From: Caldifarciminota bacterium
GTDB taxonomy: Bacteria > Hydrothermota > UBA3072
Assembly: GCA_023131835.1 (NCBI GenBank)
Contig: JAGLZA010000128.1
Span: forward strand, 1 to 33,669
Length of the DNA: 33,669 nucleotides
Direction of reading: 5' to 3'
Of the stretch, positions 1,395 through 33,413 are shown piece after piece. Position 1 is the first letter of the stretch. The number at the start of each line of letters is the position of its first letter. The notes beneath the pieces were generated by a model that saw nothing but the letters and a program-made list of their open reading frames with translations, ran no database searches and was not told the DNA's origin. The position numbers were made by a program, and so were the translations under genes.

Positions 1395-1395
1395 T

Positions 1396-3288: not shown

Positions 3289-3301
3289 TAGGGAGGTATT
3301 T

Positions 3302-3673
3302 ATGAATAGTTTTAAAGTCAAAATTGAGCGGTTGAAAACACTGAACACCGGTTTAAGAGTTGCTGCATTGATACTTGTGCTTCTTGGTATAATTGTTCTT
3401 GTTACTCCTTTTTCCCTCTTTGGTGCAGAAGAGGAAGTGAGTCAAGTAGTTGGCGAAAAAGCTACAGCATGGGCTTTCCTTGCAGCGGGCTTCTCAATTG
3501 CTGTAGCTGTTTTAGGGGCAGGGATTGCGCTTTCCAAAATTGGACCTGCTGCTATGGCTGCCCTTGCAGAAAAGCCAGAGATTATGGGTACTGCTATCCT
3601 CTTTGCAGGTCTTGCAGAAGGACTTGCCATCTGGGGACTTATCGTAGCAATTCTTATCTTAGTTAAGGTATGA
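3302..3673 (+). CDS. V/A-type ATPase subunit K (c ring, proteolipid)
   Basis: 123 residues. An N-terminal hydrophobic segment (about 18-41) is followed by one helical hairpin (about 55-80 and 96-121). The ion-binding carboxylate is Glu106 in FAGLAEGLAI. The loop SKIGPAAMAALAEKPE is characteristic. The hairpin is a single unit, so the ring would be built from 2-helix repeats plus an extra N-terminal helix or cleaved leader, as in Thermus subunit L. I see no Gln or Thr/Gln set in the first hairpin helix of the kind that binds Na+ in Enterococcus NtpK, so proton coupling is more likely; this is inference. A good GGGAGG lies 5' of the ATG. The end overlaps subunit F as ATGA. Confidence 0.95.
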   Translation: MNSFKVKIERLKTLNTGLRVAALILVLLGIIVLVTPFSLFGAEEEVSQVVGEKATAWAFLAAGFSIAVAVLGAGIALSKIGPAAMAALAEKPEIMGTAILFAGLAEGLAIWGLIVAILILVKV

Positions 3674-3972
3674 AGATAAAGGTTATAGGTGATGAGTTCA
3701 CCTGTCTTGGGTTCAATCTTGCAGGAGTTGATACAGTGGTTACTATGGACAGAGAAACGGTTGATGTGGAATTCGAAAAGTCCCTGCAAGATGAGGAGAT
3801 AGGACTCATATTCATAACAGAGAAGGAGGCCGATCTCATCAGGGATAAGGTCGATAAACAGAAGACCGAAGGTAAAATGCCCCTGGTTGTAGAGATTCCT
3901 TCTAAGGTTGGATGGAGAGAAAGAGGCAGGACATTGCAATTGATAAAACGCGTTTTATCTATAGAAGTATGA
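3670..3972 (+). CDS. V/A-type ATPase subunit F (central stalk)
   Basis: 100 residues, the usual size for subunit F. The fold signature is present: an N-terminal KIKVIGDEFTCLGFNLAGV strand-helix, GLIFITEKEADLIRD in the middle and PLVVEIPSKVG near the end. With subunit D it forms the rotating shaft. It overlaps subunit K upstream and subunit E downstream through four-base ATGA junctions, so translation is coupled. In most archaeal-type operons F follows C and precedes A; here it precedes E. Confidence 0.95.
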   Translation: MKIKVIGDEFTCLGFNLAGVDTVVTMDRETVDVEFEKSLQDEEIGLIFITEKEADLIRDKVDKQKTEGKMPLVVEIPSKVGWRERGRTLQLIKRVLSIEV

Positions 3973-4550
3973 AGAAAGGCATAGAGGATTTAGAGAAGAA
4001 GATAATAAATAAGGCAAATGAGGAAGCAGAACTGGTTGTATCCAGAGCAAAGAAGGCAAGGTTACGCATACTAAAGGGAGCAAAGGAAGAGGCAAAGGAA
4101 ATAGAGGAGGAGGCTAAGAAAAAGGGAGAGGAATTTTTCGAGAAAGAAAAGAGAAGGATAATCTCGGAGAAGAGAATTGACGAAAAGAAGGAGATTCTTT
4201 CTGTGCGTCAGAAAGTTCTGGATCAACTCGCATTGGATATGGAACAATGTCTCCTTGAGATGCTAAAAAGAGAGGAAATGAGTGAATGGATAAAATCAAA
4301 GTGTGAGGAAATAATAGATAAGGAAAGAGAAAAAATGGTTCTTGTGACCAGAGAGAAAGATAAGGAAATATACGAAAAAATAGTAAAGAAAATTCATAAT
4401 CTAATGGTAGGGGTTGAGCCAATAGAGACAGGGTTTCTTCTCCGCTGCGAGGAGTGCGAATATGATTTTCGTTTCAATGTCATCTCTCAGAATGTCATTC
4501 ACAGGAACAGAAAGATAATTGTTTCAATGTTGGGAGAAAATAGTGGGTGA
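3969..4550 (+). CDS. V/A-type ATPase subunit E (peripheral stalk)
   Basis: 193 residues. The first ~90 form a highly charged coiled coil, followed by a compact C-terminal domain ending in DFRFNVISQNVIHRNRKIIVSML, matching subunit E, the partner of subunit H. The frame is open further upstream to an ATG at 3912, but that lies inside subunit F. The ATG at 3969 forms an ATGA overlap with the F stop, gives the usual start (MKKGIEDLEKKI) and is preferred. Its 3' end overlaps the subunit A start by eight bases. Confidence 0.9.
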   Translation: MKKGIEDLEKKIINKANEEAELVVSRAKKARLRILKGAKEEAKEIEEEAKKKGEEFFEKEKRRIISEKRIDEKKEILSVRQKVLDQLALDMEQCLLEMLKREEMSEWIKSKCEEIIDKEREKMVLVTREKDKEIYEKIVKKIHNLMVGVEPIETGFLLRCEECEYDFRFNVISQNVIHRNRKIIVSMLGENSG

Positions 4551-6303
4551 AGGGGTCCTTTACAGAATTTCAGGTCCTATCGTAGTATCAAGGAAGACAT
4601 CGGGTCTTAAGATGAACGAAGAGGTCAGGATAGGGGATGAGGAACTCATTGGTGAAGTGATAGAGATAAACGGGGAGGAAGCAGTAATTCAGGTGTATGA
4701 AGAAACAACGGGAATCAGTCCAGGAACAAGAGTCTCTGGCACAGGTAATCCAATATCGGTGGAATTGGGTCCTGGTCTAATTGGCTGCACATTTGATGGT
4801 ATCCAACGACCACTTGTCGTTATAAGAAAAGAGCAGGGTATTTTTATCAAGAGAGGGCTAAACCCCAAACCATTATCCAGGGACAGGGAATGGGAGGTGG
4901 ATATTCACTTGAAGAAAGACGATTTGGTTGTTCCAAATACCATAATTGGAGAGGTTGAAGAGACATCCCTTATCAGACATCGTATTCTCATTCCCCCGGG
5001 AGTATATGGTAAGGTGTTAGAGATAATAGAATTACCAGGATATAGAGTAGAGGATACGATCTGTATTATAGAAGATAAAGAGGGTGAAAGAAGAGAGGTT
5101 AAACTCTTCCACACATGGCCGGTTCGGAAAAAGAGACCCTTTATTGAAAGACTTCCCCACGAAGAGATACTGTTTACCGGTCAGAGGGTAATCGATTCCA
5201 TCTTTCCCCTTGCCAAGGGAGGGGTTGCTGCAATACCTGGAGGGTTTGGCACAGGAAAAACGGTAACTCAACACGCTCTTGCCAAGTGGGCTGATGCAGA
5301 TATTATCATATATATTGGTTGTGGGGAGAGGGGAAATGAGATGGCGCAGGTCCTGGAAGAGTTTCCTAAACTCAAGGACCCAAGGTCCGGGAAATCCCTT
5401 ATGGAAAGGACTATCCTTATTGCAAATACCTCCAATATGCCTGTTACCGCGAGGGAATCCAGTATATATACAGGTATTACTATGGCAGAGTATTTCAGGG
5501 ATATGGGTTATGATGTAGCGCTTATGGCAGATTCAACTTCCAGATGGGCAGAGGCTCTCAGAGAGATATCTGGTAGAATGGAAGAGATGCCAGCTGAGAG
5601 GGGTTATCCTGCCTATTTAGGCTCAAGACTTGCAGGGTTCTATGAACGAGGCGGAAGGGTAAAGGTTACAGAAGACAGAATAGGTTCTGTCTCTGTGATT
5701 GGCGCAGTTTCACCTCCGGGAGGAGATTTTTCAGAGCCTGTAACCAGCCACACAAAGCGTTTTGTTCGCACATTCTGGGTCCTTGATAAGGATTTGGCGT
5801 ATGCAAGGCATTATCCTGCAATATCCTGGACCAATTCATATTCAGGCTATTTTGAAGAGATTGCAAAATGGTGGGAGGCTAAAGATATACCTATTCGTAG
5901 CCTTCGTATCAGAGTAATGGAGACACTCACGGTTGAGACTCACCTGCGTCAGATAGTCCAAATGGTAGGAGAAGGTGCACTTCCCGAGAAAGAGAGATTA
6001 ACCTTAAAGGAAGCAGAACTCATCAGGGAGGGATTCCTTCAGCAGAATGCCCTATCACCGGTGGATGCATATTGCAGCCCTGAAAAGCAATATAGAATGC
6101 TGAAGATTATACTGGATTTTGGTGAGCGCGCGCGGGATCTCTTAGAAAGGGGACTTCCATTGTTTAAGATTATAGAACTACCGATATTTTCTGAATTGAA
6201 ACGGATGGGCGTAGAGATTGAAAATAAAGAGATAGATAAATTTGATAAATTGGCTGAAAGGGTAGAGAAAGAATTTGAAACCCTGAAGGAAGAATATGGA
6301 TAG
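4543..6303 (+). CDS. atpA: V/A-type ATPase catalytic subunit A
   Basis: 586 residues. The Walker A loop GGFGTGKT is at about 233-240. The catalytic Glu262 lies in GCGERGNEM. The A-subunit-specific non-homologous insertion is recognisable from [14 protein letters not shown] and HTWPVR. ATP hydrolysis or synthesis takes place here. I chose the GTG at 4543 because a GGGAG at 4532-4536 is correctly spaced and the resulting N-terminus ([15 protein letters not shown]) fits the family; an in-frame TTG at 4519 would add residues encoded inside subunit E. The gene overlaps E and B by eight bases each. No intein is present at the P-loop, a site where some archaeal A subunits carry one. Confidence 0.97.
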
Positions 6304-7672
6304 TATATACCATAAGAGACATATAGGGGCACAGGAATTAACAGGTCCCATCCTTATTGTGGAAGGTGTGGAGAATGTGGGTTTTGGTGAGTTGGTCCTG
6401 ATTGAGCAGGGTGATATAAATAGACTTGGGAGAGTCCTTGAAGTGGCTGGGAATCGTGCTGTATGCCAGGTTTTCGCTGGAACTTCTGGTATTGACAGGG
6501 AGAAGGTTCGGATTCGATTTACCGGTTCCCCAATGACCCTTCCTGTATCGGAAGAGATGATTGGGAGGGTATTCGATGGTCTCGGCAGACCAATTGATGG
6601 TTGTGGTGAGGTTATAGGTGAGGAAGAAAGAGATGTTAATGGTAACCCTTTGAATCCGGATGCACGGGAATACCCCCGGGAGAATATACTCACTGGCATA
6701 TCAGCAATAGATGGACTCACCACATTGATTCGTGGACAAAAACTTCCGATATTCTCAGGTGCAGGATTGCCCCATAATGAGATAGCAGCTCAGGTTGTCA
6801 ATCAGGCAAGGATTTCGAAGGAGGAGGATTTTATTATCATATTTGCGGCAATGGGCATAAAGGCCGATGATGCAGATTTCTTTATGAGAAGATTTGAAGA
6901 GGGTGGTGCTTTAAGCCGCCTTGTTACATTTATTAATCTTGCGGATAGCCCATCAGTGGAACGACTCATAACTCCGAGATGTGCATTAACAGCAGCAGAG
7001 TATCTTGCATTTGATAAAGGTAACCATGTTCTCGTTATAATGACCGACCTCACAAATTATTGTGAGGCATTGCGTGAAGTAGCCTCAGCGATGGGAGAAG
7101 TCCCTTCAAGAAAGGGTTACCCCGGATATCTATACAGTGACCTTGCTACTCTGTATGAACGAACCGGAAGGGTGAAGGGTAGGGAAGGTTCCATTACCCA
7201 GATACCGATACTAACTATGCCTAATGACGATATCACCCATCCTATCCCGGATCTTACAGGATATATCACCGAGGGGCAGATTGTTCTCTCAAGAGAATTA
7301 TATCAGAAAGGCATCTATCCCCCAATAGATATTATGTCATCCCTGTCAAGATTGATGAAGGACGGCATAGGGGAAGGACGGACAAGGAAAGACCATCCTG
7401 ATCTCTACAGTCAGTTATACGCATCCTATTCTCGAGTTCAGAGGGTCCGCTCTCTTGCATCAATAATAGGCGAGGATGAATTATCTGAGGTGGATAGAAA
7501 TTATCTTAAGTTTGGAAAAGACTTTGAAGGGAAGTTCCTTAATCAGGATAAGACAGAGAGTCGGTCCATTGAGGAGACTCTGAATCGTGGATGGGAAGTT
7601 CTTATGAATCTTCCGGAATCCGAGCTTGTCAGGCTATCAAAAGAGGAAATTGAAGAATACAGGAGTAAGTAG
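6296..7672 (+). CDS. atpB: V/A-type ATPase regulatory subunit B
   Basis: 458 residues, close to the family norm of about 460. The degenerate nucleotide loop [17 protein letters not shown] replaces a Walker A motif, as expected for the non-catalytic B subunit. [22 protein letters not shown] and [30 protein letters not shown] are hallmark stretches. The ATG lies inside the last codons of subunit A and is preceded by an AAGGAAG. Its stop shares one base with the GTG of subunit D. Confidence 0.97.
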
Positions 7673-8277
7673 TGGCTATAGCACCCACCCATAGCAATCT
7701 TCTGAAGTTAAAAAAGGAATTAGGGATAGCCAGAGAAGGATACAGCCTCCTGGATGAAAAGAGGGAAGTTATGATAATGGAACTTATGGGTAATATACAC
7801 GGTTTTAAAAGGATGGAAGAGGACTTAACAGAAAAGTTAAAGGAAGCATATATTGCACTGGAAGATGCTGTGGTTTCTATGGGGAAGGATAACTTGAGGA
7901 AATTTTCTAAAACAAAGGAGCAGCCCTATGTGGATATCCGGATGAGATCGATTATGGGTATTCCAGTTCCGGAACTAATGATTGATATTCCTGAAGAAGG
8001 ATGTTATGCATCTCTTGAATCAACTGACGAGAATTTTGACCTTGCGTTGATGAATTTCAAAGAGGTATTAGAGATCGCAGTTCAGTGGGCAGCAAGGGAG
8101 GCTCTATTATGGAAGTTGGGTTCAGAGATTAATAAGACGCAGAAAAGGGTAAATGCACTTGAGAATCTATTCATTCCTGAATATGAAGAAGATATAAAGC
8201 GGATAGAGGAATCTCTGGAAGAGGAAGAAAGGGAAGAGTTCTTCAGGAGGAAAAGGTTGAAAGGAAGGGGGTATTGA
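7672..8277 (+). CDS. V/A-type ATPase subunit D (central shaft)
   Basis: 201 residues. The N-terminus APTHSNLLKLKKELGIAREGYSLLDEKREVM is the classic subunit D signature, and the protein is a long antiparallel coiled coil with the hinge region in the middle. With F it forms the rotor axle. The GTG start overlaps the subunit B stop by one base, and the stop shares a base with the ATG of the next gene, a universal stress protein. This is the last true ATPase gene of the operon. Confidence 0.96.
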   Translation: MAIAPTHSNLLKLKKELGIAREGYSLLDEKREVMIMELMGNIHGFKRMEEDLTEKLKEAYIALEDAVVSMGKDNLRKFSKTKEQPYVDIRMRSIMGIPVPELMIDIPEEGCYASLESTDENFDLALMNFKEVLEIAVQWAAREALLWKLGSEINKTQKRVNALENLFIPEYEEDIKRIEESLEEEEREEFFRRKRLKGRGY

Positions 8278-9663: not shown

Positions 9664-11739
9664 ATGATGATTATTATTTTGGTTCTTTTTTCCTATAGTG
9701 AAGTTTCCTATGAGCCTACTATTGACTCTATTATTTCTCAGGTAGACAGTATAGAATTGATGAAGTGGGTCAGGGAGATATCAGGTGAGGATAGTATATT
9801 CTTTTTAGGAGATTCCACCCTTATTCTTACAAGGTGGTATGACACATACGATATGAGTAAGGCAGAGGACTATCTCCTTGAATATTTTCAATCCATAGGG
9901 CTTGAGGCTTATAAACGAGTTTATTGGGTGCCTCATTGGAGATGGCCAGAATGGTATTACGAGTATTGGTCAGGTGAGTATACGGGGCATATTTTTTCTG
10001 ACACTTTATGTTACCTTGTATCGACCGATAGTCTCCTCTATTACACCACTAATAATGGCTACCTCTGGGTAAAGATGAAACAGTTGCCAATTGAGCCATA
10101 TGGGGTTCATAATCCCGCTCCAGAGACATTGTATATCTTTTCAAATGCAGGACAGGTCTATTTCTCATCCGATGGAGGTGAAAATTTTGAGGAGCGAGAT
10201 TCTCTATTACCTTCCAGTATTCAGGATATGTATTTTATAACAGGGAAGAAGGGGTGGATATTGTCAAACTTAGGAGTTGTAGGCAGGACGGACGATGCTG
10301 GAATGACCTGGGATACTGTGAATACAGGGGTTCCGGTAACGCGAGATATCTTTTTTGTCGATTCTTTAGAAGGTTGGTTCTGCGGATATTTTGGGAAGAT
10401 ATATCATTCATCAGATGGGGGAGAGGTATGGAATCAGCAACCTTCACCAATCAGTGGTAATTTCCATGGAATATTCTTTATGAATGCTGATACAGGATGG
10501 ATATGTGGTGATAATGGCGCACTCCTCCGAACTGTGGATGGAGGAGGCATCTGGGAGGATATTAGCTTTTCCACTGCTAATTTCAGAGAGGTATATTTCA
10601 GGACGGTGGATGAAGGATGGATAGGAGGGACTAATGGTAGTCTTTATTTTACCCCAGATGGAGGATTGAACTGGCAAGAGATAGAAAGTGCTTCTTCAAT
10701 AATCAATAGCATATACGAGAGTGATAATAATATCTACATTGGCGGGGTGAGAGATTTTATCATAATGGTAGATAGTGATTATGTTGATATGCAATCGTAT
10801 TTACCTAATGCAGTATGTAACATTGTAGCTGTTCAGCCTGGTGTAGTCCATCCTGAGACAACAGTGATAATAGGGGGACATTGTGATGCAGTTTCTTGCG
10901 GCAACGATCCAAGCGATACAATAAATTATATCAGGTGTCCTGGTGCCAATAACAATGGGACAGGGGTTGGCGCTGTAAAGGAGGCGGCTAAAATTTTATC
11001 CCAATACAATTTTGAGTACTCCATTGAATATGTACTCTGGGGAGCAGAGGAGAGTGGTTTTTTTGGTAGTCGATATTATGTTGATAATGCTGTGAGCATA
11101 AATAAGCCTATTAAAGGCGTCATTGATGTAAACGAACTTGGGTATGATACAGTAGGGACGTATGACATACATATTGTGACAGATTCAAATGGAGTAGATT
11201 TTGCACATCTTGCGATAGATATTATATCTTTATATTCATTACCCCTTAATATCGCAGCACTTGATACAACTGATGGTTTTGTAAGTGATATAACTATGTT
11301 TTGGGATAATGGATATAGCGGTATTTTCTTTGAAAATAATGATCTTAGCCCGAGCGATTGGACACAGTATGATACTGTAGGAGAAATTAATGTTGATTTT
11401 TATTACAACTTTACAAAACTTGCTTTAGCAGAACTTGCCTACCTGGCAAAACTTGTTGAAACAGGAGTTGGAGATAATGACCTTAACAGGATTAGTATAA
11501 ACATAGAAACCCCAATAATTGGTAACAGGATTTTATTTTCAGTATCAGGTATAAATAATAGACAGGTGAAGATTGAATTATACGATATAGCGGGAAGAGG
11601 GATATTTGATATATTTGAAGGGAGGATAATGGGTAAGAAAGATTTTTATATAGAGAAAGACTTCCATTCAGGAGTGTATTTTATAAGATTAAAAACTAAA
11701 GGGGAAACATTCTCAAAGAAAGTGATAATTCTTAAGTGA
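9664..11739 (+). CDS. Secreted M28-fold (aminopeptidase-like) protein with inserted propeller; probably not a normal zinc peptidase
   Basis: 691 residues with a short hydrophobic N-terminus (about 1-12) that could be a signal peptide. Residues ~20-95 resemble the N-terminal part of M28 proteins. Residues ~110-375 hold four to six YCF48/BNR-like propeller repeats, each around a GW and a SSDGG or TVDGG turn. The M28 core follows (~395-600): GGHCD (His406, Asp408), GANNNGTG, WGAEESGFFGS (Glu462/463), VIDVNELGY and SDITMFW. Compared with Aeromonas aminopeptidase, the bridging Asp is Asn430, the second Asp ligand is Asn490 and the last His is Ile543, so the two-zinc site looks dismantled. The C-terminus (~608-691, ending SGVYFIRLKTKGETFSKKVIIL) is a type-A (T9SS-like) sorting domain. 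A GGGGGG precedes the ATG; a second ATG follows at once. It is a single-gene unit. Confidence 0.85.
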   Translation: MMIIILVLFSYSEVSYEPTIDSIISQVDSIELMKWVREISGEDSIFFLGDSTLILTRWYDTYDMSKAEDYLLEYFQSIGLEAYKRVYWVPHWRWPEWYYEYWSGEYTGHIFSDTLCYLVSTDSLLYYTTNNGYLWVKMKQLPIEPYGVHNPAPETLYIFSNAGQVYFSSDGGENFEERDSLLPSSIQDMYFITGKKGWILSNLGVVGRTDDAGMTWDTVNTGVPVTRDIFFVDSLEGWFCGYFGKIYHSSDGGEVWNQQPSPISGNFHGIFFMNADTGWICGDNGALLRTVDGGGIWEDISFSTANFREVYFRTVDEGWIGGTNGSLYFTPDGGLNWQEIESASSIINSIYESDNNIYIGGVRDFIIMVDSDYVDMQSYLPNAVCNIVAVQPGVVHPETTVIIGGHCDAVSCGNDPSDTINYIRCPGANNNGTGVGAVKEAAKILSQYNFEYSIEYVLWGAEESGFFGSRYYVDNAVSINKPIKGVIDVNELGYDTVGTYDIHIVTDSNGVDFAHLAIDIISLYSLPLNIAALDTTDGFVSDITMFWDNGYSGIFFENNDLSPSDWTQYDTVGEINVDFYYNFTKLALAELAYLAKLVETGVGDNDLNRISINIETPIIGNRILFSVSGINNRQVKIELYDIAGRGIFDIFEGRIMGKKDFYIEKDFHSGVYFIRLKTKGETFSKKVIILK

Positions 11740-23466: not shown

Positions 23467-24855
23467 ATGAATGTAAAGAAAATTTTACTATGGCTTCCTT
23501 TTATACTGAACGCAACGACTTTTTCATTTGGAATGATTCCATCGCCACAGATAGCAGGGGATAGTTTTTTTGTCCAGATAAATGCATATGATCCTGAGGA
23601 TTTTAATGGATTCGGAATTATCTCAGTGCGTCCCTTACCGTCATATATGGAAGTGATAGGGGCGAGTAACAACAGAGTAGAGTTCGCCAATGGTGTGTGG
23701 AGTGGATATGTCCGAATCTTTCGTACAGCAGATTCTGTCCATTTGAACTGTACAGAGTATGGTCATAGTGATATAAACCTGAGTAATGTATTCTCGGTTC
23801 TTTCGAATTCTCCCGAGCGATTACAGATACTCCTTCCGGGTGAATTTTCAGATCCTGGTAATACCGCAGGTAGTGGAAGATATGGGGCGCCTGCGTCAAT
23901 AATTGCAGGTAGAGATACGCTTGCAGAGATATATCTTACTGATCACTGGTGGAACCCTGTCGGTTCCGGCAATGATGAAGTATATATTACCTGTAATAAT
24001 CCATTCCCAATATTGCCTTTTCCTGCTTCTATGAATGCGGGTTCTCTGCAGGTTAATTATAATTTGAGGACTGCCCAACAGAATAATTATATATATGTTC
24101 ATCATAATCCTGCTGGAGTTGACACCTTTATTTCTGATACAAGCAGTGCATTCGAGGTGATTCCTGGAGACTTCTCACGTTTGCTGCTTACCGTTCCGGG
24201 AGAGGTTCTTCTCCCGGGTGATACCCTACAACAACCTTCAGCCACAAGATATCCGGGTGTTGATGGAGAACCATCATTACAGACTGCAGGAGTGAGTTTT
24301 CCTGTTGCTGTGTATGCTGTAGATAATTGTTGGAATGTTGTAAGTACAGCTCCTCCGGACATTGTCAGGATTGAGGCTTACAGATTTTCATCGCTCACTC
24401 AGACTGGAACCCTGATTAATGGGATTGCTGATTTTTCTATTGTTCCCACCACAGGAGGTATCGTACTCGTACTCTGGGCTACTGATACTACTGATATATC
24501 TATAGAAAATTCATATAATGTTCTGGTTAATGTCTCCGGAGGTGGTGAGGAATTGGAGGAACGAATAGTCAACTTCCCCAATCCCTTTGGAAGGAATAAT
24601 ACATACACCACTATCCATTATTATCTAAACGAAGATGCCGATGTATTGCTTAGAATATATGATAAATTTGGCAACCTTGTTTGGGTTTATGAAGGACAGG
24701 GACAGGGAGGAGAGCAACCTAATACAGTCAGATGGGATGGAGTTACTGTTGATGGTGAAAGAGTTGCTTCGGGAATCTATGTTCTTTGTATAAGAGCAAC
24801 GAATCGAACCAAAACTGTTGCTGAATATAAAAGAAAGATTGCTGTTATAAGATAG
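23467..24855 (+). CDS. Secreted surface protein with two Ig-like repeats and a FlgD-like C-terminal domain
   Basis: 462 residues. A signal peptide (MNVKKILLWLPFILNATTFSFG) is followed by a variable β-rich region and two related repeats of about 110-120 residues. Each opens LQILLPGEF or LLLTVPGEV, then a DPGN/PGDT turn and a DHWWNPV or DNCWNVV strand. The C-terminal ~85 residues (NFPNPFGRN start, NTVRWDGVTVDGERVASGIYVLCI) are a FlgD/Ig-like sorting-type domain. The frame extends back to a GTG at 23395, but that lies upstream of the promoter; GGGAGGG at 23458-23464 supports the ATG at 23467. It is the first gene of the envelope operon and is probably exported or anchored at the cell surface. 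Function is unknown. Confidence 0.8.
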   Translation: MNVKKILLWLPFILNATTFSFGMIPSPQIAGDSFFVQINAYDPEDFNGFGIISVRPLPSYMEVIGASNNRVEFANGVWSGYVRIFRTADSVHLNCTEYGHSDINLSNVFSVLSNSPERLQILLPGEFSDPGNTAGSGRYGAPASIIAGRDTLAEIYLTDHWWNPVGSGNDEVYITCNNPFPILPFPASMNAGSLQVNYNLRTAQQNNYIYVHHNPAGVDTFISDTSSAFEVIPGDFSRLLLTVPGEVLLPGDTLQQPSATRYPGVDGEPSLQTAGVSFPVAVYAVDNCWNVVSTAPPDIVRIEAYRFSSLTQTGTLINGIADFSIVPTTGGIVLVLWATDTTDISIENSYNVLVNVSGGGEELEERIVNFPNPFGRNNTYTTIHYYLNEDADVLLRIYDKFGNLVWVYEGQGQGGEQPNTVRWDGVTVDGERVASGIYVLCIRATNRTKTVAEYKRKIAVIR

Positions 24856-24863
24856 GAGGAAAG

Positions 24864-26219
24864 GTGAAGCGAATAATCAGGTTCTTTCTTCTTGGACTAT
24901 TCTTGACGGGTTTGGCTTATGGTGAAGGTGTGGGAGGATCGTCCGGGGAGTTATTAAACTTTGGCGCCGGGGCAAGGGTGATGGGGATGGGAAGGGCTGG
25001 GACTGGTCTTTCAGATGATGCTTCTGCCCCCTATTACAATCCTGCAGGACTCTACCAGATCAATCCCCAGGAGATTCTCTTTATGCACACAATGCTTTTT
25101 ATGGGGATAAGTTATGATTATCTATCATACATCCATCCTACTGAACGCTTTGGTTCCTTTGGGATTTCCTTTGTACAGGTGCGAACCCACGGGATTGAGG
25201 ATAGAGATGTAACCAATGTCCGAATAGGTTCATTTGACGAATCAGAGATGGTTGCTATCCTCACTTATGCGAAGAATATCGGAAGCCTTGTCTCTCTGGG
25301 CGCGAATTATAAGGTGGTATACCACACAATCTCCCACTGGAGTAGCCTTGGACAGGGATTGGATTTTTCTACGCTAATTCTGCCAAATAAACCATTATCA
25401 GTTGGATTGATGTTTAAGAACATTGTAGCACCCAAACTCACATTGGATACAGAAGAAGATGTCTATCCCTTTATAATGAGAGGTGGACTGAGTTATAAGA
25501 CCCTTTCTGATAAACTCACGGTATGTACAGATATGAGTTGGTCTAAGTATCGAGGGATTTTATTATTTGGAGGTATGGAATATTGTGCACATCGATATGC
25601 AACCCTTCGTTTGGGTATGGATTATAACTATCTTACCCTTGGTGTTGGATTTAACATACCTTTACCCCAATATACAATAAAGGTTGACTATGCCTATCAA
25701 CATCATTACGCTGCAGGAGGATTGGTATCACCAACCCAAAATTTCTCCATATCAGTGGACTTTGGTGGTTTTCGCGCAAAGCTGCATCCGGAACGCCCGG
25801 TCTTCTCTCCTGCTGCTTATGGAGGAGAAAACATTCTATGGCTACAAAAAGAGGTTTCAACAAGGGAAAAGATTAGAAAATGGCAAATCTTGATAAATAA
25901 CTCCTGGGGTGAGGTAATCAGGATTTATAAGGCCTGGGGAGACATCCCCGCAAGGCTCTACTGGGATGGAAGGGATGAGACAGGGAATATAGTCCAGGAT
26001 GGGACATATTACTACCGTATTATTGTGACAGATGAGACAGGACGTTCTTATTCCTCGGAAGGTAAACTTGCTACAGTGAAGACAAAGGGTCCGGAAGGGA
26101 GAGTGCTCTTTGAAGAGCAAGAGGATACTCTGGAAGCAATACCGGATACACTTATTCAATTTGAAGAGACGGAAAAGAAAGACGTGGAGGAAAAATCAGA
26201 GGAAGAGAAGGAGCAGTAA
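24864..26219 (+). CDS. PorV/UPF0164-like outer-membrane barrel fused to a FlgD-like domain
   Basis: 451 residues. After a signal peptide (to about Gly20), the segment LNFGAGARVMGMGRAGTGLSDDASAPYYNPAGL is the diagnostic start of PorV/PorQ/UPF0164 barrels, and alternating strands run to about residue 310. Residues ~325-400 form a FlgD-like Ig domain (WQILINNSWGEVIRIYKAWG, then LYWDGRDETGNIVQDGTYYYRI). The last ~45 residues are an acidic Glu/Lys tail. A GTG start with AGGAGG overlapping the previous stop is clear. Known PorV proteins help release T9SS cargo; fusion to a FlgD-like domain is less usual. The tail is likely periplasmic or disordered. Confidence 0.83.
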   Translation: MKRIIRFFLLGLFLTGLAYGEGVGGSSGELLNFGAGARVMGMGRAGTGLSDDASAPYYNPAGLYQINPQEILFMHTMLFMGISYDYLSYIHPTERFGSFGISFVQVRTHGIEDRDVTNVRIGSFDESEMVAILTYAKNIGSLVSLGANYKVVYHTISHWSSLGQGLDFSTLILPNKPLSVGLMFKNIVAPKLTLDTEEDVYPFIMRGGLSYKTLSDKLTVCTDMSWSKYRGILLFGGMEYCAHRYATLRLGMDYNYLTLGVGFNIPLPQYTIKVDYAYQHHYAAGGLVSPTQNFSISVDFGGFRAKLHPERPVFSPAAYGGENILWLQKEVSTREKIRKWQILINNSWGEVIRIYKAWGDIPARLYWDGRDETGNIVQDGTYYYRIIVTDETGRSYSSEGKLATVKTKGPEGRVLFEEQEDTLEAIPDTLIQFEETEKKDVEEKSEEEKEQ

Positions 26220-26221
26220 TT

Positions 26222-29089
26222 ATGCGGTTTCTTGTGAACGGCTTTTTGATAATCATAGGTTTTCTTCTTCCTGTTCAATCCCTTCTGGGAATAACTCCTG
26301 AGGCGGCCGAGGCTTTCAGGATTACATCTGATTTATTCAAAGACCACGAATATGAAAGAGCTAAAGAACTCTTCAATTCCCTCCTGGGCGAGATGGAGGA
26401 ATATCGGGGAGAGGCATTGTACAGGATTGGAGAGTGTGATTATAACCTCAGGAATTACGACAGAGCCATAGAGAATTTCAGGAAAGTGTGGGAAGAATAT
26501 AGGGATACCTATCTTGCACCAGAAGCTCTCTACGGCTTAATACTATCCTATATTGCTTCAGGAAACTTTCGGGAAGCAGAGGAGATTCTTTCTAAACTAA
26601 TCTCAAGATATCCTGGATATAAAAAGGCAAAGAAAACCTTGCTTGCAGAAGCGATTCTCTCTTTCGAAAAGGGCAATTACCCTGAGGTTGTAAAGAAACT
26701 GGAGAATATAGATACAAAAGAGGCGCTCTTCTATAAAGCCAAGTCCTATTTCTCTATGAGTAAGGCTATTGAAGCCCTATCGCATTTCAAAAAACTCACT
26801 GAGGATTATCCTGACAGCCCTTTGGCACAACATGCCTACTACTATATGGGTGATGTTCTATTCTTTTCCGGAGATTATGAGGGCGCTCTATATAAATATA
26901 ATATCTTTCTTGATAAGTATCCCTATAGTGAATTAAAGGATTATGCTAAGTATAAATTAGCGGTATGTTATTTTAATAAAGGGGATTACTCTAAAACTAT
27001 GGGACAATTAAAGCCCATTCTAAACAGCCCTGATAATTTCCTTGCTGCTCATAGTAGTCTTCTCTTTGCAGAGAGTCTTTTAGGGGTTGGGGAATTTGAT
27101 GAGGCATTAAGGATATTTACCAGGGTTATATCGAACTATGCCAATCTAAAGGTCAGTGCAATGGCAGATCTAAGGATGGGTGAGACATTTCTTGAGAAGG
27201 ATGACACGGTGCAGGCAAGGATTGTTTATCAGCAAATGGCATCGCGATATACATCCGGGGAATTCGGAGGGTTTGGGGACTATCTTGCCGGTGCTCAGTT
27301 ATTCGAGGAAGAAGATTTCTTCCAGTCAAAGAATTATTTTACACGCATATTGAAGAACTACAGTGGGTCAGATTTTATTTGTCCGGCCACGGCTATGCTT
27401 ATCCGAACCTATAATAAGATGGGGGATTACGAATTATCTATTGCTTTGGGTTCCCGTCTATTAAAGGATATTGATTGCAGTAAAAAAAGGATATGGAAGG
27501 GAAGGGCTATGTTCCACCTTGCAGAGGCATACTATATCAAGTCCCGGTACAAGAAGGCAAAGGAGCTCTACAGGGAGGTAACCGAGCAGTTCAATATTCC
27601 TGAACTTATGAGTCCTGCCCTGACTGCTCTTGGTTGGTGTCTTCTTCATGAAGGGAGGTATGATATTGCAGAGAAACAATTCAAGAAAGTATTAACAGGA
27701 TATTCAAGGGATACTACATCCTTTATCTGTAGTCTTTTGGGAGAAGGAGTGGTCCTGTATAATAGAGGAGAATACAAGGATGCATTGGATTATTTTGAGA
27801 GGGTTCCGGATATTTCCCCTGAGAAATCACTTGCTGCAAAGTCGATATTCTATGCGGGGAAATGTTATTATAATCTTGAATATTACAGGCAAGGAATAGA
27901 AGGATGGGAGAGGGTTCTTTCTGAATACCATGATACAGAGATGGCAGCAAATGCTGCATATCAGATTGGACAGACATATTTCCAGGCCTTAAAATATGAT
28001 CAGTCAATTGCTTATTTCAGGTTGCTCATCAAGGACTATCCGGAATCTCCCCTCGTTCTAAAATCTCAAATAGCACTTGGTCATTCATATTACAACAGTC
28101 AGGATTATCAGTCTGCAGTTAGGGAGTTTTCAAAATTTCTCTCATTATATCCTGAAGATACTATTTATTCACAGGTAAGGTCTTCCCTTTCACTGGCATA
28201 CTATATGTTGGGACAGGAGGACAAAGATGCCTTAAAGGAGTTTATAAAACGTTTTCCAGGAGATCCAAAGGCTGCCCTTGCGCAATTTAATCTGGGCGTT
28301 GATGCCTACGACAAAGGTGACCACGAGGTAGCAATTGAGGAATTCAGGAAGACGGTGGTTGACTTTCCTGAGACAGAGTATTCTGAGAAGGCTCAAATAA
28401 ATATTCTGAAATGTTATGAAGATATGGAGAATCATGAGAAAATGGCAAAAGAGGCTGAACAATTTCTTGAATATTTTCCGAAGAGCAAGAAAGTCCCCCT
28501 TGCATTGTTCTATAAAGGTATGGGTTATTTCTATCTGAATGATTATGAGAAGGCAATTAAAGCCTTCAAAAGCATTGCAAGAGAATATCCTGAAAGTGAG
28601 TATGTGTCCTGTGCAAGGTACAACCTTTCACAATGTTATAAAAAAATGGGGGAGACAGAGAGAGCAGTGGGCGAATTAAAAACCTATTCAAATTCCGGGG
28701 AAGGCAGCGAATTTAAGGGTCAAATATTATCAGGTGCTGTCTATCAGGAGCAGGGGGATTACGGAAAGGCGTTGAATATCTATTCGGAGATTAAGCCAAC
28801 CAATCTAAAAGAAAAAGCCGAACTCTATTCGCGAAAGGGCGAGTGCTGTGTAAAACTGGATAAGATAGAGGTGGCAATTGTGGAATATAAGAGATTGCTT
28901 CCACTCAATCTCAAAAACAATAAATACCAGATGAAGGGTTTAGCCGAACTTGGAGGTTTATACGAAGGGAAGAAAGATATCCAGAAAGCGATAAAAACAT
29001 ATTCCCGACTCCTTGAGATAACAACCGATGAAAGTGTTATTTCTACTGTCAGGGAAAGGTTGGAATATTTGAAGTCCAGGGGAAGATAG
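26222..29089 (+). CDS. Very long periplasmic TPR protein
   Basis: 955 residues. The N-terminal hydrophobic segment (FLVNGFLIIIGFLLPVQSLLG) is a signal peptide. The rest is about 22-24 tetratricopeptide-like repeats, for example EALYRIGECDYNLRNYDRAIENF and AAYQIGQTYFQALKYDQSIAYF, ending with KKDIQKAIKTYSRLLEITTDES. Repeats with the D-Y/E-x-A-I-x-x-F/Y-x-x-L pattern and YP-S/G spacing resemble YbgF/CpoB and BamD-type periplasmic TPR proteins. It starts two bases after the barrel gene and ends directly at the next gene. It likely acts as a scaffold between the outer-membrane and inner-membrane parts of the operon's complex. Confidence 0.88.
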   Translation: MRFLVNGFLIIIGFLLPVQSLLGITPEAAEAFRITSDLFKDHEYERAKELFNSLLGEMEEYRGEALYRIGECDYNLRNYDRAIENFRKVWEEYRDTYLAPEALYGLILSYIASGNFREAEEILSKLISRYPGYKKAKKTLLAEAILSFEKGNYPEVVKKLENIDTKEALFYKAKSYFSMSKAIEALSHFKKLTEDYPDSPLAQHAYYYMGDVLFFSGDYEGALYKYNIFLDKYPYSELKDYAKYKLAVCYFNKGDYSKTMGQLKPILNSPDNFLAAHSSLLFAESLLGVGEFDEALRIFTRVISNYANLKVSAMADLRMGETFLEKDDTVQARIVYQQMASRYTSGEFGGFGDYLAGAQLFEEEDFFQSKNYFTRILKNYSGSDFICPATAMLIRTYNKMGDYELSIALGSRLLKDIDCSKKRIWKGRAMFHLAEAYYIKSRYKKAKELYREVTEQFNIPELMSPALTALGWCLLHEGRYDIAEKQFKKVLTGYSRDTTSFICSLLGEGVVLYNRGEYKDALDYFERVPDISPEKSLAAKSIFYAGKCYYNLEYYRQGIEGWERVLSEYHDTEMAANAAYQIGQTYFQALKYDQSIAYFRLLIKDYPESPLVLKSQIALGHSYYNSQDYQSAVREFSKFLSLYPEDTIYSQVRSSLSLAYYMLGQEDKDALKEFIKRFPGDPKAALAQFNLGVDAYDKGDHEVAIEEFRKTVVDFPETEYSEKAQINILKCYEDMENHEKMAKEAEQFLEYFPKSKKVPLALFYKGMGYFYLNDYEKAIKAFKSIAREYPESEYVSCARYNLSQCYKKMGETERAVGELKTYSNSGEGSEFKGQILSGAVYQEQGDYGKALNIYSEIKPTNLKEKAELYSRKGECCVKLDKIEVAIVEYKRLLPLNLKNNKYQMKGLAELGGLYEGKKDIQKAIKTYSRLLEITTDESVISTVRERLEYLKSRGR

Positions 29090-29635
29090 ATGAAGAATAA
29101 ACGAAGTCATTTAATACCAAAGGAGGTTTTTCGATTACGCATTATAAACACCCTTATTGGTATTCTTATAGCATTAATCGTAGTTTTGATACTATTTGCT
29201 ATAAGTCTCTTCTATTGGGTTCCGGCAGGAAGACACATCTTTTCAGAGGGGGGGTTGAATTCTCCTGCTGGACAAAATATAATCCTGGCCGGAAAGATAT
29301 TGATTGGTCTAACTCTTTTCCTTGCTATTATATTATTCTGGTCTGTCTATCTCATCGGTTCAAGATTCCTGGGGCCATTGATTCGGCTAAGCATGGATAT
29401 AGAAGAATTGGGTAGTGGAGAGAAACCAGAAGAACTGCGGTTCAGAGAGGGTGATGAGTGGGAATTTCACTCTTTAGCAGTTTCCCTCAATGAGGTCTTC
29501 GGGGAATTTGGGGAATTTAAGGAGATAGAGGAAGAGATTATAAAATTCAATGATATGTTGGAGAAAAAGAAAAAAAAGCCAAAGGAAGCGGTTACTTTTA
29601 TTAAGGAACTCACAACCAAACTAAAAAAGGAGTGA
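29090..29635 (+). CDS. HAMP-like inner-membrane protein without an output domain
   Basis: 181 residues. Two membrane helices (about 19-44 and 66-90) enclose a short external loop. A HAMP-like stretch follows (FLGPLIRLSMDIEELGSGEK, REGDEWEFHSLAVSLNEVF), then a charged coiled coil ending KELTTKLKKE. No kinase, cyclase or chemotaxis domain is present. It starts on the base after the TPR gene and lies four bases before the TolQ-like gene. A role as a membrane adaptor passing a conformational signal to the motor is possible, but is inference. Confidence 0.7.
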   Translation: MKNKRSHLIPKEVFRLRIINTLIGILIALIVVLILFAISLFYWVPAGRHIFSEGGLNSPAGQNIILAGKILIGLTLFLAIILFWSVYLIGSRFLGPLIRLSMDIEELGSGEKPEELRFREGDEWEFHSLAVSLNEVFGEFGEFKEIEEEIIKFNDMLEKKKKKPKEAVTFIKELTTKLKKE

Positions 29636-29638
29636 ATA

Positions 29639-30286
29639 ATGGCAGGGATAAGTTTTTTAACCCTTTTGAAAACGAGTTGGGCAATAGATTTGCTACTTGT
29701 ATTTTCCATTGTTGCCCTTGCTGTTATATTAGAGAGACTCTGGGCATACCGACAGTTGAGGATAGATGAAGGAAGATTGTTGAAAAGGGTCCAGGGAGCG
29801 TTAAAGAAGGGTAATATAGAGGAAGCAATCTATCTCTGTGAGGCGGCCAAGAACCCCCTTGCAGAGATTTTTATAGTTGGAATAAGGAACAGGAGGTTGC
29901 CAAGAGAGGACATTTCTGATCTTCTGGATGGTGCTATTATAGAGGCTAAGACATTCCTTGAAAAGAGGAATGTCGCTTTAAGCACTATCAGTTTTATTGC
30001 TCCTCTGCTTGGACTCCTTGGAACTGTTCTCGGTATCATACGGGCTTTTCATGACCTTGCTGTATCAGGTGCTGGTGGCCCCTCGGTTGTGATGGCAGGA
30101 GTTGCTGAGGCATTAGTTTCTACAGCGATAGGGATTATTGTAGCAATACCTGCAGCTATCTTCTACAATTTCTTTATGAATAATGTAAAGGGAATTCTGA
30201 CGAAGATAGAATCTACTACCAGGAAATTTCTCACCTTTTTGAATCTCACATTCGAAAAAGAGAGGATAATTAATAAGGTTTTATAA
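29639..30286 (+). CDS. TolQ/ExbB/MotA-type ion-channel subunit
   Basis: 215 residues with three membrane segments. The motifs PLLGLLGTVLGIIRAF and AEALVSTAIGIIVAIPAAIFYNFF place the two conserved Thr positions of the ExbB/TolQ channel. With ExbD-type proteins it would use the proton (or sodium) gradient to drive movement in the periplasm. It directly precedes two ExbD genes and a tonB-like gene. It is about 30 residues shorter than E. coli ExbB, mainly at the N-terminus. Confidence 0.93.
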   Translation: MAGISFLTLLKTSWAIDLLLVFSIVALAVILERLWAYRQLRIDEGRLLKRVQGALKKGNIEEAIYLCEAAKNPLAEIFIVGIRNRRLPREDISDLLDGAIIEAKTFLEKRNVALSTISFIAPLLGLLGTVLGIIRAFHDLAVSGAGGPSVVMAGVAEALVSTAIGIIVAIPAAIFYNFFMNNVKGILTKIESTTRKFLTFLNLTFEKERIINKVL

Positions 30287-30706
30287 ATGAATAGGAATGC
30301 CATTTTTGAAAGTGAGATAGAAAATGCCGTAGGGAGGATCCCCATTACTCCTATGATAAATGTGGCTCTTCTTCTGGTTCTATTCTTTATGATGTCTGCT
30401 CCGGCTATCTTTATGTCGGGAATAAAGGTTAAGAGTCCCTCTCTTACGACCGAGCCAGGAACAGAGGCTACAGAGTTAAAGGTGAATATATACATAGATG
30501 CAGAAGGAGATCTCTACCTGAATGAAGAATTGATCCAATGGGATGAATTTAGCCAGAGGGTGGCGGAACTCCTTGCGAGAAGCACAACAAGAATTGTGGT
30601 TGTAAGTGCTGCCCCTCATATTCCCATTCAGAAGGTCGTCACCGTCCTTGATATCGCAAGACAAAAAGGGGCATTGAAACTGGCTTTGCTACGGAGGAAG
30701 GAATGA
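30287..30706 (+). CDS. ExbD/TolR-like protein 1, Asp to Asn variant
   Basis: 139 residues with one membrane helix (about 25-45) and a periplasmic ExbD domain. The position that in ExbD/TolR carries the essential Asp (PLVDV) reads PMINV here: Asn25, codon AAT at 30359-30361. The other features of the family, including INVALLLVLFFMMSAP and the C-terminal IPIQKVVTVLDIARQKGALKLALL, are intact. It follows the TolQ-like gene without a gap and overlaps the second ExbD by four bases. A second ExbD with a normal Asp suggests a heteromeric rotor or linker pair in which only one subunit binds protons. Confidence 0.9.
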   Translation: MNRNAIFESEIENAVGRIPITPMINVALLLVLFFMMSAPAIFMSGIKVKSPSLTTEPGTEATELKVNIYIDAEGDLYLNEELIQWDEFSQRVAELLARSTTRIVVVSAAPHIPIQKVVTVLDIARQKGALKLALLRRKE

Positions 30707-31113
30707 GACGGAAGAGTGCTCTGGAAGGAGGACAAAAGGAAGCAGATATAATGATAGTTCCACTTGCCGATGTGAGTTTTACAATATTAATAACACTAAT
30801 GGTATTAACTCCGGTTTTGCTCCTTACTTCTAAACTTCATGTTAATCTCCCTGTAGCTGCAACAGTAGAGCCTCCTCAGGAGAAGAATATAAGTATTACC
30901 ATTACTTCTGATAATGTAATATCTGTGAACAATGTAATCGTATCTCGTGAAGAACTGCCGAATGTTTTGGAGGAAACAATCAGAAAGAATCCAAAAAGAT
31001 TGATATACATTAGAGCGGATCAAACTACCCGGACGGATGCAGTGATGACGATTATTGGTCTGGTAAAGAGATTGGGTGCAGAACGGATATCCATCGCAAC
31101 TATCCAGAGGTAA
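30703..31113 (+). CDS. ExbD/TolR-like protein 2, canonical Asp
   Basis: 136 residues. The membrane helix begins IMIVPLADVSFTILITLMVLT with the conserved Asp23. The periplasmic domain (ISITITSDNVISVNNVIVSREEL, then IYIRADQTTRTDAVMTIIGLVKRLGAERISIAT) is a standard ExbD fold. It starts in an ATGA overlap with ExbD 1 and its stop shares a base with the tonB-like ATG. Paired ExbD proteins with one TolQ are known from the AglRQS motor of Myxococcus and some TonB systems. Confidence 0.93.
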   Translation: MRRKSALEGGQKEADIMIVPLADVSFTILITLMVLTPVLLLTSKLHVNLPVAATVEPPQEKNISITITSDNVISVNNVIVSREELPNVLEETIRKNPKRLIYIRADQTTRTDAVMTIIGLVKRLGAERISIATIQR

Positions 31114-32081
31114 TGATGCTCAAATTAAATAATTACGGTTTTTATGATAGGAAAATACTTACCTCTATTATTCTGTCATTGCTTATACACTCTGCCGTAT
31201 TCTGGTTTACAAGCCAGAGAAGTAAAGCAAGAATAATTACAAGGATAGATAATGTAGAATTCATTGATGAGACTTCTCCTGCATCCTTTACCCCAACTCT
31301 ACCAACAAAGAGTGTTTTTCAGGCAATAAAGGATAGGTTCAAAAGGAAAAAGGAAGTCAAGGAATTAGAAATGAACGAGATTACAAAGATAGTTCGCTCC
31401 CTGCCTCCTGTACCTGGAGTGAACCAGGAGGAAGGGATAGCTCTTGATGGGAAACAACTGGATCGCTCTCAGGCAAAGGGTATAGACCTGGATAAATTTG
31501 ATAGAATGGAAGGTCAAAAAGGAGGTGTTACAGAGGTAATCAGAATTGCCTCTTCCGGTGAACAGAAGGGGTCAGAGGATATACTTAGTAAGGCACCAAT
31601 AAAGATAGACAAAAAGGAAAGGATTCATTCTGAAGCCCCTGTTGGACTATTCTCTTCTCCGGGCAGTGGAGGGGAAGTGGACCTCGAGAGGGTTCCAACA
31701 GAAGCGATAGATAAAAGTTATAAGGAATTTACGGAAGAAAAGAAAGAGAAGGTCCGTTTGAGGAAAATTCCCTCTGTGGGTAAGGCACATATTAAGATTA
31801 CAGGGCCACTTTCTAAAAGAGGACTCAAATACAAGCCACTACCTGCTTATCCGGAATGGGCGGCAAGAGAGGGAATATCAGCAATAATTAAACTACAGAT
31901 AATGGTGAATCCTGATGGGACAGTCAAGCCAGGCATCTTTGTTTTGTGCACCTCTGGTTATGGCTCATGGGATAGGGCTGTAATTGATTTTATTAAGAGA
32001 TGGCAATTTGCTCCTCTAAGTGATGATGAGCGTCAGATTGTTCAAACCGGAATCATAATAATAAAATTCGTTTTGGAGTAG
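31113..32081 (+). CDS. TonB-like energy-transducing protein
   Basis: 322 residues. One N-terminal membrane anchor (LTSIILSLLIHSAVFWFTS, about 16-34), a long charged linker of about 190 residues that is not Pro-rich, and a C-terminal TonB domain. In the TonB domain, LPAYPEWAAREGISAIIKLQIMVNPDGTVKPG carries the YP and G motifs, and RAVIDFIKRWQFAPL follows. It would transmit force from the TolQ-ExbD motor to an outer-membrane partner. The next gene encodes a FlgD- and OmpA-like protein, and the PorV-like barrel lies in the same operon; no TonB-dependent receptor with a TonB box is nearby. ATG at 31113 or 31116. Confidence 0.88.
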   Translation: MMLKLNNYGFYDRKILTSIILSLLIHSAVFWFTSQRSKARIITRIDNVEFIDETSPASFTPTLPTKSVFQAIKDRFKRKKEVKELEMNEITKIVRSLPPVPGVNQEEGIALDGKQLDRSQAKGIDLDKFDRMEGQKGGVTEVIRIASSGEQKGSEDILSKAPIKIDKKERIHSEAPVGLFSSPGSGGEVDLERVPTEAIDKSYKEFTEEKKEKVRLRKIPSVGKAHIKITGPLSKRGLKYKPLPAYPEWAAREGISAIIKLQIMVNPDGTVKPGIFVLCTSGYGSWDRAVIDFIKRWQFAPLSDDERQIVQTGIIIIKFVLE

Positions 32082-32083
32082 AG

Positions 32084-32950
32084 ATGAAAAAAATACTTTT
32101 ACTTTTATTTTTTACTGTTCTCAATCCTTTAGGACTTCAATCCCAGGAGGATGTTAGGGAAGAGGTTATAAAGGGGAAATACAAGGGAAAGATCGAGGAA
32201 AAGAAACCTGAATCAGAACTCACCTATGATATATTTGAGGTTGTTGAATCCTATGGTCCCCGGGGTAGTCATATCTATGATGAAGAGATTAAGGAACATT
32301 CTGAGATTGCGGCAACTCCACTTCCAAGACTGGTAAGCGAACAAGTTAGAAAACCCTGGTTTCATAGAATTATTACCCCACCTATAGCTATCTTCCATCC
32401 AATTTATAAAGAAGCTGTGCAGAATTGGGAATTAGTTATAACAGATGCTACAGGCAAGGTATTCCGAACATTCTCTAACAAGGGAAGGCCTCTGGGGAAT
32501 ATTGAATGGGATGGTAGGGATAGAGAAGGCAGTATGCTTGATATAGGGACCGATTATTCATACTATGCAACTGCTGTGGACCAATTGGGTAATACCTCTA
32601 AGATATTGGGTGGCAAGATAAGGATTCCCGGAATATACTGGAAGGAGGAGTTGAACTCCATTGTGAGACTGGATGGAAGGGTTATATTCAAGGAGAATTC
32701 TCAAGAGTTGACCAGGGCAGGAGAAAGATTACTCCTGGAGGCTTCTGATCTCGTCAGGAAGGATATTAAAAAACGTCTAAGGGTAGTTGTATATTCGCGA
32801 AAGGAAGACCTTTCTTTGAAGAGAGCAAGGATTGTGGGAACATTCCTCCTTGATAGAGTAATTATGCCTATTAGTATGGTGACCACCATCGCGGGTTATA
32901 AGTCAGTAGGAGAAGATAAGACAGATCACATAGATATCATAATCCGTTAA
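32084..32950 (+). CDS. Secreted protein with FlgD-like and OmpA/Pal-like domains
   Basis: 288 residues. A signal peptide (MKKILLLLFFTVLNPLGLQS) and a linker are followed by a FlgD-like Ig domain (about 105-190: WELVITDATGKVFRTFSNKG, IEWDGRDREGSMLDIGTDYSYY). The C-terminus is an OmpA/Pal-like domain (about 195-288: VRLDGRVIFKENSQELTRAG, DLSLKRARIVGTFLL, DHIDIIIR). Arg247 in SLKRARIV matches the peptidoglycan-binding Arg, but the GHTDxxG loop before it is shortened, so the partner Asp is not obvious. Last gene of the operon, three bases after the tonB-like gene. No Lipo-box Cys is present, so it is not a typical Pal lipoprotein. GGAG precedes the ATG. Confidence 0.82.
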   Translation: MKKILLLLFFTVLNPLGLQSQEDVREEVIKGKYKGKIEEKKPESELTYDIFEVVESYGPRGSHIYDEEIKEHSEIAATPLPRLVSEQVRKPWFHRIITPPIAIFHPIYKEAVQNWELVITDATGKVFRTFSNKGRPLGNIEWDGRDREGSMLDIGTDYSYYATAVDQLGNTSKILGGKIRIPGIYWKEELNSIVRLDGRVIFKENSQELTRAGERLLLEASDLVRKDIKKRLRVVVYSRKEDLSLKRARIVGTFLLDRVIMPISMVTTIAGYKSVGEDKTDHIDIIIR

Positions 32951-33264: not shown

Positions 33265-33413
33265 CAGGGGGTAAGCCCCTGTGCAGTTATTTTTGGAGTA
33301 GCAGAGCTTGCTCTGCGCTTTTTTTTGCGCGAGACTTGTAGGGGCAATTCATGAATTGCCACTACTTCGTTTTCGAAGAAATTCGTTCCAATATTTTGCG
33401 ACAGGGATGTCGC
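33265..33413. repeat. Cluster of four different palindromes
   Basis: CAGGGG/CCCCTG with 5-base loop (33265-33281); GCAGAGC/GCTCTGC (33301-33316); GGCAATTCATGAATTGCC (33343-33360, perfect) after a TTTTTTGCGCGA lead; GCGACA/TGTCGC with 4-base loop (33398-33413). The second is an exact inverted copy of 21529-21556 and the third repeats 19911-19947. Confidence 0.85.

Follow-up and report, generated by a model that had tools for sequence, protein, structure and literature searches.

A conserved envelope motor operon of WOR-3/Stahlbacteria and Elusimicrobiota in which the two ExbD proteins usually share a single proton-binding aspartate

Motors of the MotAB, ExbBD, and TolQR type are modeled with two identical axle subunits whose aspartate protonation is swapped every 36 degrees, and a review of these motors considers ten-fold symmetry almost certainly universal (PMC9389320). 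The aspartate itself (D25 of Escherichia coli ExbD, D23 of TolR) has been described as indispensable (PMC12905483). Can such a motor run when only one of its axle subunits carries this residue? The question is raised by a nine-gene operon on contig JAGLZA010000128.1 from a Caldifarciminota bacterium (GenBank assembly GCA_023131835.1), of which we analyzed a stretch of 33,669 nucleotides, here called the window. The operon encodes one ExbB and two ExbD proteins, ExbD1 and ExbD2, and ExbD1 lacks the aspartate. A single TolQ accompanied by two different TolR-like proteins is known from AglRQS and from the vWA clusters of the Planctomycetes-Verrucomicrobia-Chlamydiae (PVC) group (PMC9389320, PMC12204202), and the review gives heterodimer formation by paired axle proteins, such as AglQ and AglS, as unknown (PMC9389320). 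An earlier note, made from the DNA letters of the window, had recognized an envelope motor operon; the single-aspartate motor was not among the features that it described.

The aspartate pattern of the two ExbD proteins

The motor part of the operon consists of three adjacent genes:

Gene 5, 29639..30286, + strand, ExbB/TolQ, with pore threonines Thr129 (30023-30025) and Thr162 (30122-30124)
Gene 6, 30287..30706, + strand, ExbD1, without the aspartate; Asn25, codon AAT at 30359-30361
Gene 7, 30703..31113, + strand, ExbD2, with Asp23 retained, codon GAT at 30769-30771

The MotA/TolQ/ExbB domain of gene 5 scored 105 bits in Pfam, and the protein is nearest to TolQ in both PDB and NCBIfam. Its Thr129 and Thr162 are the counterparts of T148 and T181 of E. 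coli ExbB. Genes 6 and 7 matched PF02472 (ExbD/TolR) at 75 to 79 bits as well as ExbD/TolR structures in PDB, and both have the ExbD/TolR fold with a transmembrane helix and a periplasmic domain. The motif of the helix is PITPMI[N]VALL in ExbD1 and MIVPLA[D]VSFT in ExbD2. Asn25 of ExbD1 thus occupies the position at which ExbD, TolR, and MotB have the proton-binding aspartate, and only one of the two putative axle subunits carries it.

Among 103 operons with two ExbD genes, 77 retain one aspartate, 25 retain both, and none lacks both; the remaining operon (L240, in our numbering of loci) was unreadable. The residue pairs were D,D (25 operons), D,C (21), D,G (19), N,D (14), D,A (13), D,S (4), S,D (3), D,N (2), and D,T (1). 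The controls were 80 ExbDs encoded beside ExbB in other phyla or in the two other motor loci of the window genome. The aspartate was retained in 79 of them, and the sole exception (L023) belongs to the same operon type. A substitute acid in the aspartate-less helix was considered and rejected, as 70 of the 77 helices have no such residue and the other 7 have one at least 12 residues further on. Both pore threonines are invariant in the 89 operon ExbBs (89/89) and the equivalent of ExbB E176 is variable, which we read as indicating that proton conduction is under constraint and that one aspartate is enough.

The operon ExbD1 and ExbD2 proteins fall into two clades (support for the split, 98) and are ancient paralogues. 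Within WOR-3, the aspartate was lost from ExbD1 in the clade of the window and from ExbD2 in other clades. These two loss patterns do not stem from a swap in gene order, as the ExbD1 and ExbD2 clades stay apart; true swaps of ExbD order are limited to L126-L128, all of which keep both aspartates. In a tree of all ExbDs, including those of Elusimicrobiota and other loci, the losses need four changes, three of which are forced by well-supported branches. Since the loss, the site has undergone at least 12 further changes among C, G, N, A, S, and T, none of them back to an acid. In 13 close pairs, the ratio of nonsynonymous to synonymous substitution rates (dN/dS) of the aspartate-less copies was 0.03 to 0.17, about equal to that of the partner, indicating that the aspartate-less copy is under purifying selection. 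Between the window and locus L004, ExbD1 is 77% and ExbD2 69% identical. A pseudogene or an assembly error as the cause of the loss was rejected because of this dN/dS range and the consistency of the pattern over dozens of genomes.

In seven operons from three families, the aspartate-less ExbD1 is fused to the C terminus of an additional ExbB, with a free ExbB and ExbD2 encoded alongside. The fusion proteins (L119-L125) are 358 to 368 residues long, for example, at L119:3784-4890 on the minus strand. Given the known topology of both proteins, the ExbB and ExbD1 ends that are joined both lie in the cytoplasm. These seven fusions fit a ring with one ExbD1, and a 5:2 complex in such operons would comprise one fused and four free ExbB subunits.

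Four WOR-3 operons with both aspartates (L126, L127, L128, and L132) lie inside single-aspartate clades on the tree of TonB and FlgD/OmpA proteins. Their ExbDs branch outside those clades, and three of the four have the order ExbB-ExbD2-ExbB-ExbD1. The motor genes of these operons have apparently been replaced.

The nine genes and their distribution

Nine open reading frames were confirmed at positions 23467 to 32950, all on the + strand. The intergene gaps from gene 1 to gene 9 are 8, 2, 0, 3, 0, -4, -1, and 2 bases, in agreement with the tight packing, with short gaps or overlaps, reported in the earlier note. The genes around the motor and the downstream signal are as follows:

Gene 1, 23467..24855, + strand, secreted protein with signal peptide, Ig-like repeats, and a C-terminal FlgD_ig/T9SS-tail-like domain
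Gene 2, 24864..26219, + strand, outer-membrane barrel of the PorV/PorQ family with a C-terminal FlgD-like domain (FlgD_ig/CHU_C) and an acidic tail
Gene 3, 26222..29089, + strand, periplasmic tetratricopeptide repeat (TPR) protein of 955 residues with signal peptide
Gene 4, 29090..29635, + strand, membrane protein, likely HAMP-like, restricted to the WOR-3 clade of the window (7 loci)
Gene 8, 31113..32081, + strand, TonB-like force transducer with Ser22 and His26 of an SHLS-type motor-binding motif
Gene 9, 32084..32950, + strand, periplasmic protein with a FlgD-like Ig domain and an OmpA-like domain without the diaminopimelate (DAP)-binding loop
Terminator-like hairpin followed by a T run, 33301..33316, + strand, downstream of the operon (pattern match)

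Domain searches upheld the earlier assignments for genes 1, 2, 3, and 5 to 9. Gene 2 scored 105.9 bits against NF033709 (PorV/PorQ family; cutoff, 90), and its C terminus is FlgD/CHU_C-like. The TPRs of gene 3 resemble those of YbgF, BamD, and PorW. The C terminus of gene 8 matched TonB_C (E value of 3e-11), and its transmembrane segment contains the S-x3-H part of the SHLS motif; a histidine lies within the predicted transmembrane segment of 96 of the 106 operon TonBs. The HAMP-like assignment of gene 4 is likely on indirect grounds: the protein had no significant Pfam match, and the iterated profile built from it also picks up an Elusimicrobia protein whose score falls slightly short of the Pfam HAMP cutoff.

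Gene 9 gave a FlgD_ig match and a weak OmpA match (E value of 0.02). Its AlphaFold model has a predicted local distance difference test (pLDDT) score of about 90 over most of residues 110 to 270, and Foldseek comparison of the model with PDB returned peptidoglycan-binding domains of the OmpA/MotB type as well as FlgD, the cap protein of the flagellar hook. The model thus supports an OmpA fold. No DAP-binding HTDxxG motif was found at the expected position of the OmpA domain; among 109 gene 9-type proteins, the 14 listed hits to a loose HTDxxG pattern all fall outside that loop, and one protein has a lipobox. Since it lacks the DAP-binding loop, the gene 9 protein is probably not a peptidoglycan anchor. 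Of the purposes suggested in the earlier note, tethering is weakened, and export or motility remain.

The window genome is a 3.9-Mb metagenome assembly; among named organisms, Candidatus Stahlbacteria and WOR-3 bacteria are its nearest relatives. The phylum set comprised 147 WOR-3/Stahlbacteria genomes. An alignment of gene 9 matched 95 of these genomes at an E value of <=1e-6, and a broader alignment matched 99 at <=1e-5, about 90 of them below 1e-25. The gene order was read with profiles in 80 fetched loci and the window, at one locus per genome. ExbB-ExbD-ExbD-TonB-FlgD/OmpA occur together in 74 of the 81 loci, with the TPR gene upstream of the motor in 67, PorV as well in 60, and gene 1, at the equivalent place, in 54. 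Loci without the full core are mostly contig ends. The presence of the operon is patchy even inside one genus (found in genome G127 and absent from G128), and over a third of the phylum lacks it.

The operon is also carried by Elusimicrobiota, with the shorter core TPR-ExbB-ExbD-ExbD-TonB-FlgD/OmpA, and by a third, small group (G149 and relatives). The conservation of gene order in dozens of genomes excludes chance. Several Elusimicrobiota loci have, instead of PorV, a FlgD-repeat protein of about 1,000 residues with an intact OmpA peptidoglycan motif. Such FlgD/Ig-repeat and OmpA proteins (L016:6938-9997, with similar proteins in L223, L227, L233, and L236) occupy the place of the PorV-FlgD protein of WOR-3.

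In loci of Elusimicrobia and of the Desantisbacteria-like type, a response regulator is encoded after TonB or FlgD/OmpA (L016:13557-14503, L006:3208-3576, and L007:13555-13923), accompanied in L016 by a HAMP-like membrane protein. This hints at signaling control of the motor. Two records labeled Marinifilum sp. (L007) and Clostridia bacterium (L023) are close to Desantisbacteria-like and diderm candidate-phylum loci, and their labels are probably wrong. Elsewhere in the window, positions 528 to 8277 hold a V/A-type ATP synthase operon (subunits C, I, K, F, E, A, B, and D) and, after it, genes for a universal stress protein and a phosphotransferase system EIIA protein.

A proposed one-site motor and the alternatives

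We consider it reasonably probable that the operon encodes a proton-driven trans-envelope machine with an obligate ExbD1-ExbD2 axle, a single ion site, and force transfer to the outer membrane. ExbB would form a pentameric ring, with ExbD1 and ExbD2 paired as its obligate heterodimeric axle (5:2). With a protonatable aspartate on one axle subunit, such a motor would have one ion-binding site and not two. A proton passing the ExbB threonines would rotate ring and axle against each other. A full turn is predicted to take five advances of 72 degrees each and about five protons rather than ten. The aspartate-less subunit would occupy the second axle place and be free for other work, for example, keeping the transducer or the periplasmic end in position. 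The ring may be the docking site of the TonB-like protein, which would pass force on to an assembly at the outer membrane. This assembly would comprise the FlgD/OmpA-like and TPR proteins and, in WOR-3, also the PorV-FlgD barrel. The machine would most likely serve to export, seat, or move surface proteins that carry FlgD-like tails, and the gene 1 product may be such a protein. On the further proposition that a natural 5:2 motor with a single ion site and an obligate heterodimeric axle, using five ions and five steps of 72 degrees in each turn, was reached more than once through aspartate loss from one or the other ExbD paralogue, we are evenly divided. If this is true, the two-site turnstile and the supposedly universal ten-step symmetry would be dispensable for force generation.

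Several points weigh against the one-site heterodimer. The case for it, though strong, is comparative and not biochemical, and nearly all carrier genomes are metagenome assemblies. The aspartate losses are only three to four independent events, so their mutual exclusion rests on few events, and the two ExbDs could instead pair into separate homodimeric motors. In 10 of the 106 operon TonBs, no histidine was found in the predicted transmembrane segment. Most Elusimicrobiota loci are without PorV, and the outer-membrane partners therefore vary by phylum. The structure model of the PorV-FlgD protein of gene 2 (pLDDT of 46) was too poor and was not used.

The operon may alternatively be the motor of a secretion system like the type IX secretion system (T9SS), in which ExbB-ExbD1-ExbD2-TonB would replace GldLM and drive an SprA-like translocon with PorV; this is possible, though doubtful. 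SprA_N-family proteins occur in 137 of the 147 genomes. The window genome encodes an SprA-family homologue of 1802 residues (G000:C490:14068-19464, locus L248) that is 65% identical to a protein above the SprA_N cutoff and had no sequence match in PDB. Pfam SprA_N misses this homologue, so Pfam-based T9SS surveys may undercount the phylum. PorV and FlgD/T9SS-tail proteins are encoded inside the operon, and GldM was matched in none of the 147 genomes, in a search in which no control genome gave a signal either and which did not cover GldL. However, dozens of SprA genomes have no operon, the scarcity of PorV in Elusimicrobiota operons does not suit this role, and only one of the about seven PorV-family genes of the window genome lies in the operon. 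A T9SS-like role in surface export is thus plausible but not necessary. A candidate cargo of the SprA-like system is encoded at positions 9664 to 11739 of the window: a secreted peptidase of the M28 family that has BNR-like repeats and a C-terminal tail of the T9SS type.

It is unlikely that homodimers of the aspartate-less ExbD1 form a separate, nonconducting ExbB complex, as a regulator or scaffold, with ExbD2 homodimers as the motor. In favor of such an arrangement, the aspartate-less copy is itself well conserved and some operons have two ExbBs. However, exactly one aspartate is kept whichever paralogue lost it, and the exbD1 and exbD2 genes overlap by 4 bases, which is compatible with coupled synthesis. 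In the operons with the fusion, judging from 5:2 structures, a ring made only of ExbB-ExbD1 would bring five ExbDs into a pore that takes two helices (PMC12905483), and mixing with free ExbB would thus be needed.

A gliding or surface-motility motor like that of Myxococcus AglRQS-Glt, with the transducer pulling outer-membrane adhesins relative to the wall, seems to us similarly unlikely. One TolQ, two TolRs, a TPR protein, a TonB-like protein, and outer-membrane partners are present as in Agl-Glt (PMC3169522, PMC9389320), the patchiness within a genus would suit an accessory trait, and HAMP-like or response-regulator genes adjoin some copies (L016 and L006). However, AglQ and AglS both keep the aspartate (PMC9389320), and the NCBIfam scans, with no dedicated Glt search made, gave only a marginal TPR match to GltE. 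The task at the outer membrane would be either surface export or movement.

An improbable alternative is a Tol-Pal-like machine that draws the outer membrane inward as the cell divides, with gene 9 as Pal, gene 8 as TolA, and gene 3 as YbgF/CpoB. The closeness of ExbB to TolQ, the YbgF match of the TPR protein, and the OmpA fold of gene 9 accord with it. However, TolB is absent from the operon, and the phylum search gave no TolB match in the window genome and a separate TolB in 31 others, many of which carry this operon. Gene 9 is also without the HTDxxG loop and lipobox, and over a third of the phylum does without the operon altogether. The Tol-Pal variant was rejected on the absence of TolB and of a Pal-type peptidoglycan motif, and the earlier view that the operon exactly matches no textbook system was borne out. 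An ordinary TonB uptake locus, which would accord with the TonB-dependent receptor plugs found in 147/147 genomes, is very improbable and was rejected, as no receptor gene was seen in the operons and the window genome has two other canonical ExbB-ExbD(-ExbD)-TonB loci. The failure of this reassignment and the conserved gene order support the earlier proposal of one trans-envelope machine.

Comparison with known systems

No earlier description of the operon or of single-aspartate pairs was found in the open-licence literature, and a 2025 survey of force transducers makes no mention of WOR-3 or FlgD. The machine is real, conserved, and, as far as checked, undescribed, and it occurs in two phyla with few studied members (WOR-3/Stahlbacteria and Elusimicrobiota). 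It amounts to a natural one-site experiment across a phylum in which one aspartate is always kept and the second can be spared. Should the heterodimer prove real, it would offer a natural system in which to ask which half-cycle works, how many protons are used per turn, and what the freed subunit does.

The operon shares with Tol-Pal the TolQ-like, TolR-like, TonB/TolA-like, and YbgF-like TPR proteins and the OmpA fold but has no TolB, lipoprotein Pal, or peptidoglycan-binding motif. It differs from Ton uptake systems in that a partner TonB-dependent receptor is not part of it, the receptors being encoded elsewhere in the genome. The PorV barrel, the FlgD/T9SS-tail domains, and the SprA homologue in the genome recall the T9SS (SprA-PorV and GldKLMN), whereas the operon motor is ExbB/ExbD/TonB and not GldLM, with GldM undetected in a search without a positive control. 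Myxococcus AglR-AglQ-AglS with Glt likewise has one TolQ-like and two TolR-like proteins with TPR and TonB-like partners, but AglQ and AglS both have the conserved aspartate (PMC9389320) and the cluster is without a FlgD/OmpA or PorV protein. The PVC TPR-TolQ-TolR-TolR-vWA clusters (PMC12204202) also combine a TPR protein, one tolQ-like gene, two different tolR-like genes, and an SHLS transducer. However, that transducer ends in vWA and not TonB_C, no single-aspartate pair is reported for these clusters, and they have no FlgD/OmpA protein. With the 5:2 motors of the Ton and Tol systems, the operon has in common the predicted ExbB/TolQ ring with both pore threonines, the ExbD/TolR fold, and a TonB transducer with the Ser/His motif; it differs from them in its apparently obligate ExbD pair, one member of which lacks the aspartate, and in its other outer-membrane partners.

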